Positions 13,283-64,000 of a stretch of DNA of 64,000 bases are shown here, piece by piece. The position numbers and the translations under genes are program-made. The notes under the pieces are model-generated. The model saw only the letters and a program-made list of their open reading frames with translations, had not been told where the DNA came from and searched no databases. The number at the start of each line of letters is the position of its first letter. The first letter of the stretch is position 1. The DNA comes from Tetradesmus obliquus (lineage: Eukaryota; Chlorophyta; Chlorophyceae; Sphaeropleales; Scenedesmaceae): NCBI GenBank assembly GCA_030272155.1, contig CP126200.1:1674001-1738000 (forward strand), in the 5' to 3' direction.

Positions 13283-16200
13283 TCACAGCTCCCGCGGCGA
13301 CTCCCGCCGCCTGAACACGGCCCGGAAGGTCTTGCCCTCATTGCGTGCCACCTTCTGCGCTTCCTCACTTGCTGCTGCCAGCAGTCCTGCTGCAGGGTCG
13401 GCCTCCAGCTCCTCCTCTGGCACTGGGTCAAACATCGGGTGCGCCTCCAGCTTTGACCGCTGCAGTGTTTGGAGGGGTTGGGGTGCGGCAGGAATGGTGG
13501 GGCAAACAGTGTGAGACGAAGGTGGTGGTCTGTGTTGCGAAGCACGTTAATGTTCGCAAACAGCAGTAGCTCAGCAAAGGCTGACAACATAGCATGCACA
13601 CAGCGTAGAACCAATAATAGTAAAGTGATATGACCAGAGTGGAGCGCAGAGCCTCAGTCCTATCGATCAGTACTCATCCAGGCAGTCGCGATATTGTGTT
13701 GTGCATCACAGGCTAGTGCTCCACCAACTGCATGGTGAACATGACAAACAGAACGTGATGATAAGGATACAACAGCGCATAATCTTCACACTGCTGACAT
13801 GATAAACTGACATTTAAACGAGCAAACACTCCTCCTCTCCCTGGTGTGCCAGCCTCAACGATTGCTGTGTAATCACTTGGCAAGCCATAAGAAATTATTA
13901 GTCTTTAGTATAATCACTGGCTAGCACACCACGTGGGAGGACACATCATAATGCAGCTACACAACTGCCGCTGCCGCCGCAGCGACAACTCAAGTGCCGC
14001 TGCACCACCACCTAGACGCTTGCAAGCAGCACATCAGAACCGCAATCAAGATGCAACATTAGCACACAGTTAACAGCACCCATGGGCAGAGGCCTCAGAC
14101 ACTAGAAGCGAATGAGGTTCGGATTTGTTTGTAGGGTATCAGCATAGAGCTCAGTGGGGGATGCAAACAAGTCGTCCCTGGCCTCTGTAAGAGAGAAAAC
14201 ACAGCAGGTACACGACAACATAAACTTAGCATCAAATGATGACACCAACACATGAGACACGCACAAATGAACAAGCCAGCAACACATCACATCCCGCAAT
14301 CAAGATGCAACATTAGCACACAGTTGACAGCACCCACGGGCAGAGGCCTCAGACACTAGTAGCGAATGAGGTTCGGATTGTTTGTAGGGTATCAGCATAG
14401 AGCTCAGTGGGGGATGCAAACAAGTCGTCCCTGGCCTCTGTAAGAGAGACAACACAGCAGGTACACGACGACACATACTTCGCATCAAATGATAACACCG
14501 ACACATGAAAGCACGCACAAATGAACAAGCCAGCCACACATCACATCCCGCAATCAAGATGCAACATTAGCACACAGTTGACAGCACCCATGGGCAGAGG
14601 CCTCAGACACTAGTAGCGAATGAGGTTCGGATTGTTTGTAGGGTATCAGCATAGAGCTCAGTGGGGGATGCAAACAAGTCGTCCCTGGCCTCTGTAAGAG
14701 AGACAACACAGCAGGTACACGACGACACATACTTCGCATCAAATGATAACACCGACACATGAAAGCACGCACAAATGAACAAGCCAGCCACACATCACAT
14801 CCCGCAATCAAGATGCAACATTAGCACACAGTTGACAGCACCCATGGGCAGAGGCCTCAGACACTAGTAGCGAATGAGGTTCGGATTGTTTGTAGGGTAT
14901 CAGCATAGAGCTCAGTGGGGGATGCAAACAAGTCGTCCCTGGCCTCTGTAAGAGAGACAACACAGCAGGTACACGACGACACATACTTCGCATCAAATGA
15001 TAACACCGACACATGAAAGCACGCACAAATGAACAAGCCAGCCACACATCACATCCCGCAATCAAGATGCAACATTAGCACACAGTTGACAGCACCCATG
15101 GGCAGAGGCCTCAGACACTAGTAGCGAATGAGATTCGGATTGTTGTAGGGTATCAGCATAGAGCTCAGTGGGGGATGCAAACAAGTCGTCCCTGGCCTCT
15201 GTAAGAGAGACAACACAGCAGGTACACGACAACACAAACTTAGCATCAGACGATGACACCAACACATGAAAGCACGCACAAATGAACGAGCCAGCAACAC
15301 ATCACATCACACAACACCAACGGCACAACGAACACATCACGAAGGGCCTCACCGTTAACACACAATACAGACAGCAAGAACTTGCTTCCGGACCTGCACA
15401 ACGCAGCCCATCTACAGCAGCAAGACACCTGCTGCCCCCGCTGCATGCAAGTCACCGCTACACCACACCAGCGGTAAACAAAACACTCTCCATCCACTCG
15501 CCCAGCTCTGGCACGTCTGTGATCGTGTACAGCCAACCCCCAGGCGCCATGATGTGTATGGCAGCACTGCCAGCTGCCCCTGCTGCACATATGCAAGCCA
15601 CTCTGCAGCTGAATTGCAAGAGACACACTCACCATCCACTCTCCCAGCTCTGGCACGTCTGTGATGGTGTACAGCCAACCCCCGGGTGCCATGATGTGGG
15701 CGTATTCGGTGAGCAGGCAGGGCTGGATGATGCGCCTCCTGTGGTTGGCCACCTTGAAGTGGGGGTCCTGCAGGCAATTTGAGTCAAACACAGTTTGAAC
15801 AAAAGCAGACAGGTCAAAGGCAGTCCAAAGTCAAGACAACCATGTTGCGCCACCTGTGGTTGGCCACCTTGAAGTGCGGGTCCTGCAAGCAGCGCGGTCA
15901 AACACAGGTTGACCAAAAGCAGCTGGGTCAAACACAGTCCAAGATACACAAACCATGTTGCGCCGCCTGTGGTTGGCCACCTTGAACTGCGGGTCCTGCA
16001 AGCAGCGCGGTCAAACTGTGTTTGACCAGAGCACCTGGGTCAAGAGCATTTCAAGATGCAGCCAGATTCAAGGCACGGGCGTCAGCTGTCACTGCAGTAG
16101 CCAAGTGCCCTGTAAGTAGAAACCTTTGCTGCGGCATGTGCCGCTACAGCTGCACAGCAGTTGCCAAGAGACCTCGCTAAGCTGCCCACCCATACCATAG

Positions 16201-64000: not shown

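Follow-up and report, generated by a model that had tools for sequence, protein, structure and literature searches.

The genome of the green alga Tetradesmus obliquus contains introns in which the edge of the neighbouring exon, together with its splice site, recurs one or several times in direct orientation. These arrays probably stem from recurrent tandem duplications of ca. 125 bp; filtered by selection for correct splicing, such duplications would make introns longer and leave decoy splice sites in them. The arrays were noticed in a stretch of 64,000 nucleotides, below called the window (C10:1674001-1738000; the assembly measures 104.66 Mb in 17 contigs). The observation was confirmed there and extends to parts of the genome beyond it.

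Exons and introns were modelled ab initio after training on 20 stretches of 10 kb each in addition to the window; this model replaced an earlier ab initio model that cut introns much too finely. The consensus that it learned was CAG/GTGAGT for donors and TGCAG/G for acceptors (the slash marks the junction). Gene models combined these predictions with homologous proteins. The junctions in the window are accordingly predicted ones with homology support at best, and those in the stretches outside it were predicted by the ab initio model alone.

The initial annotation had named four genes in the window METTL1, NUP160, ASNSD1 and BIG, and these names were borne out by Pfam and by homologues. The METTL1-like gene matches PF02390 with 94.9 bits, the ASNSD1-like gene matches PF00733 and has a PABB004 homologue named Asnsd1, and BIG carries Sec7/DCB/HUS/HDS domains. 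NUP160 was identified through homologues with PF23300/PF23354, its own Pfam score being 22.2 bits against a cut-off of 27.1 bits. For BIG 27 exons were predicted, the majority of which match P0001, the annotated BIG protein of the same assembly, and the Scenedesmus protein P0004. P0001 and P0002 (Tetradesmus obliquus OEZ85_003561) show 21 differences in 1,829 aligned residues, and P0002 is 99% identical to the draft BIG protein of the window over the part searched. The BIG model has flaws: the copies at 47470-47564, 47716-47746, 47818-47874 and 56107-56175 were wrongly called exons by the ab initio model, the exon near 62.8-63.06 kb was shortened, and exon 56902-57261 reads past its junction into a copy.

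Counted by hand, copies are present at 17 junctions of BIG (10 donor, 7 acceptor), two of METTL1, two of ASNSD1 and one of NUP160, which has in addition an array with ca. six copies of a whole exon. The earlier figure of at least fifteen affected junctions thus held. Of the one to six copies per junction that had been claimed, one to five are found in the gene models, and about six are reached only by the whole NUP160 exon. The identity of the copies is 73-100%. The individual arrays are as follows.

15483..15698, minus strand: METTL1-like donor unit of exon 15633-15767 (source 15625-15698), copy at 15483-15556, period 142; in the copy the GT of the donor is changed to GA
15727..16060, minus strand: METTL1-like acceptor side of exon 15633-15767, two copies upstream, period ca. 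115
20748..22401, plus strand: NUP160 whole exon plus intron in ca. six tandem copies, unit ca. 246 bp; the segment is single in the Monoraphidium relative P0122
23523..24352, plus strand: NUP160 exon 23523-23739, donor copies at 23816-23882, 23956-24022, 24143-24210 and 24289-24352
36250..38340, plus strand: ASNSD1 exon 36250-37367, end copied four times at ca. 37527-37610, 37767-37856, 38017-38100 and 38250-38339, period ca. 240
38978..39262, plus strand: ASNSD1 donor unit of exon 38550-39043, copy at 39127-39193, period 149
47464..48033, minus strand: BIG donor of exon 47951-49474, copies at 47818-47881, 47699-47758 and 47464-47552, misread as exons ab initio
51084..51310, minus strand: BIG acceptor of exon 50703-51144, copy at 51203-51263
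51457..51912, minus strand: BIG donor of exon 51738-51912, copies at 51594-51659 and 51462-51527
52058..53032, minus strand: BIG exon 52642-52927, donor copies at 52485-52548, 52307-52374 and 52123-52190, acceptor copy at 52983-53023
53329..53685, minus strand: BIG exon 53435-53581, donor-side copy at 53329-53379 (ending 3 nt before the junction), acceptor copy at 53635-53681
54384..54680, minus strand: BIG donor of exon 54621-54950, copies at 54488-54545 and 54390-54449
55669..55928, minus strand: BIG acceptor of exon 55558-55704, copies at 55785-55820 and 55897-55910
56090..56453, minus strand: BIG exon 56290-56453, end copied at 56090-56192 and misread as an exon ab initio; the segment is single in P0001
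56897..57107, minus strand: BIG donor near 57029, copy at 56897-56973, period 132
57539..57866, minus strand: BIG acceptor of exon 57445-57596, copies at 57664-57720 and 57783-57840
58619..59153, minus strand: BIG exon 58719-58811, donor copy at 58625-58663, acceptor copies at 58882-58909 and 59019-59041
60709..61603, minus strand: BIG donor of exon 61536-62438, five copies along the 1,082-nt intron
62389..62616, minus strand: BIG acceptor of exon 61536-62438, copy at 62540-62589
63272..63448, minus strand: BIG donor of exon 63379-63604, copy at 63275-63344, period 104, donor of the copy not intact

The ASNSD1 copies at 37527-38340 were modelled ab initio as 63-nt in-frame exons and are good candidates for occasional inclusion in mRNA. 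One ASNSD1 copy reads VDSSLQE, as does the relative P0123, whereas the present exon reads VNSSLEE; some copies may therefore preserve older states of their exon. The predicted last intron of the METTL1-like gene is long and contains, at 14022-15314, a young intron-only array of five 254-bp units with 97% identity and no exon sequence. Elsewhere in the window, three tandem related genes occupy 40311-45528 (plus strand) and are 75-87% alike in parts; their translations resemble what we take to be BTB-type proteins, and the one short piece of them that was searched against Pfam gave no match. The minus strand also has two reading frames, 2379-3680 and 7414-8701, that are apparently related by eye; the former has no Pfam match.

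Local repeat pairs at distances of up to 2 kb were counted after exclusion of trinucleotide-rich pairs (cut-off 0.12 or 0.15). There were 66 direct and 2 inverted pairs in the window, and 129 direct and 5 inverted pairs in the 20 other stretches, with direct ones in 14 of the 20. At least one diverged direct copy in the adjoining intron was found for 55 of 297 exon ends (30 of 144 donors and 25 of 153 acceptors). The window contributed 21 of its 101 exon ends, including two from the NUP160 whole-exon array and one from 47470-47564, which is itself a copy misread as an exon; the other stretches contributed 34 of 196, and their families were spread over 12 of the 20. Five later stretches had copies at 2 of 33 exon ends, one of these being marginal. 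A Pfam search for kinesins gave adjacent matches to the same model positions at C2:7,430,665-7,431,399. The stretch around this locus, where the model misread the part with the kinesin match, carried copies at 5 of 12 exon ends, three of them at junctions, and a second kinesin stretch (L030) at 0 of 8. As a chance control, exon-end pieces were matched to one random intron of another locus, with 0 of 320 pairs matching. Measured between the junction and the outer end of the most distant copy, the arrays take up 16.3 of the 127.5 kb of predicted introns shorter than 2.5 kb. The stretch L027 (1-10000) consists mostly of satellite with a period of ca. 310 bp, and L019 contains at 4086-6039 ca. 350-bp units with predicted 48-nt exons that may be real repeated exons.

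The side on which the copies lie is nearly fixed. For exons of at least 150 nt the intron on the expected side was matched in 37 of 255 cases and the intron on the opposite side in 3 of 255, all three from the NUP160 whole-exon array. Inverted copies were found once on the expected side and never on the opposite one. Exon middles, compared with these exon ends as the exon interior, matched either intron in only 2 of 148 cases. The direct orientation and the placement described in the initial annotation, with donor copies downstream and acceptor copies upstream, are borne out by these numbers, and its picture of tandem duplication that recurs across existing junctions of unrelated genes, enlarges introns and leaves decoy splice sites is supported. 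Its reading of the polarity as the sign of a special mechanism was not supported, since tandem duplication across a junction with an intact mRNA gives the same polarity. If a donor-spanning unit is doubled and the mRNA stays intact the spare copy necessarily lies downstream, and if an acceptor-spanning unit is doubled it necessarily lies upstream. The reverse arrangement would alter the mRNA, so that the polarity follows from tandem duplication itself.

The period of the arrays was mostly 95-157 bp. The nearest copy lay within 150 nt in 44 of 49 families, and in these 44 the median exon part was 65 nt for donors and 55 nt for acceptors and the median intron part 73 and 67 nt, respectively. Well-preserved cases read as duplications of the whole unit, with head-to-tail direct copies of one unit as in a minisatellite-like tandem array; at donor 7748 of stretch L018 a unit of 124 is duplicated with 117 of 124 columns identical. 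The centring tests excluded families with the nearest copy more than 150 nt away or an exon shorter than 120 nt. In the remaining set the junction lies near the middle of the unit, the spread of the exon share being 0.110 compared to 0.230 under uniform placement (n = 41). Uniform breakpoints with only a 25-nt exon minimum were rejected (KS P = 3e-4 for 22 donors and 5e-6 for 19 acceptors). Once minima of 30 nt for the exon part and of 34 nt (donor) or 45 nt (acceptor) for the intron part were imposed, cut-offs that were picked post hoc after the data had been seen, uniform breakpoints did fit (KS P = 0.19 and 0.63). The smallest acceptor gap in the tested set was 49 nt. The centring thus fits random breakpoints combined with two cut-offs, one set by detectability and one by the need for sufficient remaining intron. 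An acceptor limit of ca. 45 nt agrees with the usual room for a branch point and pyrimidine tract; the donor minimum of 34 nt is without obvious splicing reason.

To characterize the copies, splice sites were scored in 96 of 107 copies, the other 11 being excluded because the exon was shorter than 60 nt or the copy fell short of the junction. The copy's own (cognate) splice site scored above zero in 86 of the 96 copies, and GT or AG was lost in 7. The opposite splice site was at random level, with medians of 2.1 versus 2.0 for acceptors and −1.05 versus 0.39 for donors. Since the opposite site is no better than in random intron windows, the copies look like decoy ends and not like cassette exons, with the NUP160 array as the exception. 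The far edge of the copies is without acceptor signal, and a unit that ends at the old acceptor and contains the whole intron was rejected on this ground. Stop codons occur 14 times in 1,955, which by our estimate is about the proportion predicted from the 232 replacement differences. Gaps were found in 31 of the 96 aligned copies, and the gap total was a multiple of three in 3 of the 31 (up to 25 intron nucleotides included). Stops, frameshifting gaps and missing opposite sites led us to reject a coding role of the copies. They are neither new introns nor transposons, and for the most part they are not cassette exons either.

Exon and copy differ at 7.8, 5.7 and 20.4% of codon positions 1, 2 and 3, and copies of the same family differ from each other at 10.3, 9.1 and 23.0%. 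Global pairwise alignments with overlapping flanks served for reading the sequences only and carry no conclusions. Decoy-decoy alignments often paired a shared spacer with itself and, with 13 usable pairs, were also kept out of the conclusions. Position 3 differed more often than positions 1 and 2 on average, with a ratio of 3.02 (95% CI 2.41-3.76, bootstrap over 55 families), which exceeds the ca. 1.7 that we estimate to be allowed if the exon is constrained and its copy neutral. Where introns could be aligned (13 families), the difference was 4.7% at positions 1 and 2 and 10.6% in the aligned intron parts, which is what one versus two neutral lineages would give. The surplus sits in position 3, which in the same families differed by 16.9% compared to an expected ca. 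9%. Decay has gone much further in the intron part than in the exon-derived part of most families, and this is not accounted for by one versus two lineages. Base composition as the source of the third-position bias was not supported (GC of the three positions 73, 56 and 62%), and simple gene conversion from the linked exon would by our reckoning not lift the ratio above ca. 1.7. Exchange with diverged alleles could do so, and our guess is that the exons have undergone such exchange after they were duplicated, or that the copies are overwritten by alleles of the exon.

Local repeats were present in 41 of 112 introns flanked by well-scored exons, and in 40 of the 41 a repeat extended over a junction. 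With a stricter filter (131 introns, seven more stretches) the junction was involved in 24 of 26 repeat-bearing introns. The intron parts of the duplicated units are nearly unalignable, with matches of 0.63 and 0.61 compared to 0.54 and 0.53 in mismatched controls, so that many intron-only duplications of equal age would escape detection. The intron part was detectable without the exon sequence in 11 of 52 junction families. Three of the 11 are doubtful, i.e. 36250 and 47470 in the window, where the spacers hold other exon-derived copies, and L019 4582, which may be a whole-exon array; 8 remain. At matched detectability these 8-11 junction families compare to 2 intron-only arrays in 131 confident introns. 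For random placement in repeat-free introns the expected proportion at junctions was 0.32, 0.45 or 0.57, the three values reflecting whether long introns were kept. The corresponding binomial P values were 0.0001, 0.004 and 0.034 for 11 of 13 at the junction, and 0.002, 0.028 and 0.12 for 8 of 10. Young intron-only arrays were present at L017 3505-3837, L024 626-836 and 5997-6173, and 14022-15314 in the window, the last of which is an example of further arrays outside the count of two. The fairer comparison favours a junction preference modestly, and a real preference is possible.

In the sequence of events that we consider probable, tandem duplications, mostly of ca. 95-157 bp, would arise repeatedly along the genes of the Tetradesmus genome. 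Those within exons would disrupt the protein and be lost. Those spanning a donor or acceptor would be nearly harmless, because the copy joined to the exon splices as before and the other copy lands with its splice site in the intron. Survivors would keep enough intron for a working site, ca. 34 nt after the donor and 45-50 nt before the acceptor, which would be the branch-point region. Repetition would give arrays of 2-6 units and longer introns, and since the exon-derived part of a copy remains recognizable longest, the arrays appear centred on junctions. We infer neutrality at the mRNA level, the sieve exerted by splicing, and the overwriting of exon-derived pieces by exon alleles. Speaking against this explanation are the shortage of intron-only arrays relative to random placement, which persists when detectability is matched, the post hoc choice of the centring cut-offs, the third-position excess, the strong decay of the intron parts in most families, and the scarcity of copies in the later stretches (2/33) and in L030 (0/8).

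Retention of the copies by selection as splicing decoys or regulators would be in line with their positive cognate sites (86/96), with exon-derived parts that decay far slower than the adjoining intron (0.63 and 0.61 versus 0.54 and 0.53 in the controls), and with the third-position bias. We consider it improbable, however, because a site retention of ca. 90% is close to what we estimate from 5-7% neutral change, GT or AG is gone from 7 of 96 copies and likewise from the METTL1 copy, stops and frameshifts accumulate, and the 13 families whose introns can be aligned show a neutral rate of change at positions 1 and 2. Slightly lower still do we rank cassette or mutually exclusive exons that add protein repeats. 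Some arrays retain open frames and were strung together as exons ab initio (NUP160, ASNSD1 and two places in BIG), and many copies have few replacement changes, but outside the NUP160 array the required opposite splice site is at random level. Each copied BIG segment is moreover single in the annotated proteins of the assembly and of T. obliquus OEZ85, which reflect annotation and not transcripts. An assembly artefact, to which nothing points beyond the repetitive structure itself, is the least probable of all: it would give near-identical copies, whereas most are well below identity (73-100%), and families were found in 12 of 20 independent stretches.

Other explanations concern the origin of the arrays. 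The initial annotation had linked them to one proposed way of gaining introns, the tandem duplication of sequence that contains AG-GT. The mutation is of the same kind, and the donor and acceptor consensus sequences are both AGGT-like. Such gain predicts that the opposite end of the intron carries a copied edge of the neighbouring exon, but 0 of 74 copies lay less than 77 nt from the opposite intron end (exons of at least 150 nt, introns below ca. 1.8 kb), and the units hold an existing junction together with its intron. The link is not supported, and intron gain by this route is very improbable here. A mutational mechanism that is aimed at splice junctions and doubles ca. 125 bp, for instance where co-transcriptional splicing complexes or RNA-DNA hybrids give rise to breaks or template switches, would explain the repeats at junctions in 40 of 41 and 24 of 26 repeat-bearing introns, the 8-11 versus 2 families at matched detectability, and the centred unit (exon-share spread 0.110 versus 0.230, n = 41). 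It is nevertheless unlikely, as much of the excess is due to ascertainment (the intron part alone is visible in 11 of 52 junction families), two simple cut-offs account for the centring, and young intron-only arrays do occur in L017, L024 and the window (14022-15314). A somewhat less likely, speculative form is that junctions are hot spots for ca. 125-bp tandem duplication, at which a stalled complex or RNA-DNA hybrid tied to splicing positions the breaks and introns grow from their own ends.

Compared with known systems, the NUP160 whole-exon array is a tandem exon duplication, whereas in the remaining families an exon edge is copied along with a single splice site, and there is no hint of the second site that an exon requires. 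Introner elements likewise add sequence to many introns of one genome, but the arrays described here derive from their own neighbouring exon, and no related sequence was found in a random intron of another locus (0/320). That introns can be gained by tandem genomic duplication is accepted (PMC3443670; PMC2891723, on Drosophila), with a potato case in PMC4974935. There too a short genic segment is doubled in tandem and tolerated as splicing hides the extra copy; in that route an AGGT exonic segment creates a new intron, whereas here a junction-spanning unit enlarges an old one. In Chlamydomonas and Volvox, likewise green algae, intronic tandem repeats are commoner towards intron-exon junctions (PMC3887541). 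The abundant intron motifs named in the accessible text of that study are dinucleotides (GT/AC), not described there as exon-derived units or copied splice sites. The mean intron length is given in PMC5966456 as 462 bp in T. obliquus, compared to 230-302 bp in three other Sphaeropleales. Exon-edge copies in introns of Scenedesmaceae are not described in the titles and abstract openings among the matches listed, a scope outside which most subscription papers fall, and the main text of a 2025 Sphaeropleales genome comparison (PMC12571836) does not contain the words 'intron' or 'tandem'.

The arrays make a route of intron lengthening visible. They also illustrate that 'junction-specific' patterns can come from selection and detectability alone; if duplication hot spots tied to splicing did exist, the spliceosome would leave a structural mark on the genome. 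Exon-like intron pieces mislead gene finders in such genomes, as the ab initio model did here. Furthermore, one genome supplies numerous introns in which two to six donors or acceptors of close similarity follow one another, a natural test bed for how cells choose among near-identical splice sites, in which the rules of splice-site choice, the least intron that a site needs next to it and what becomes of decoy sites are measurable with RNA reads.
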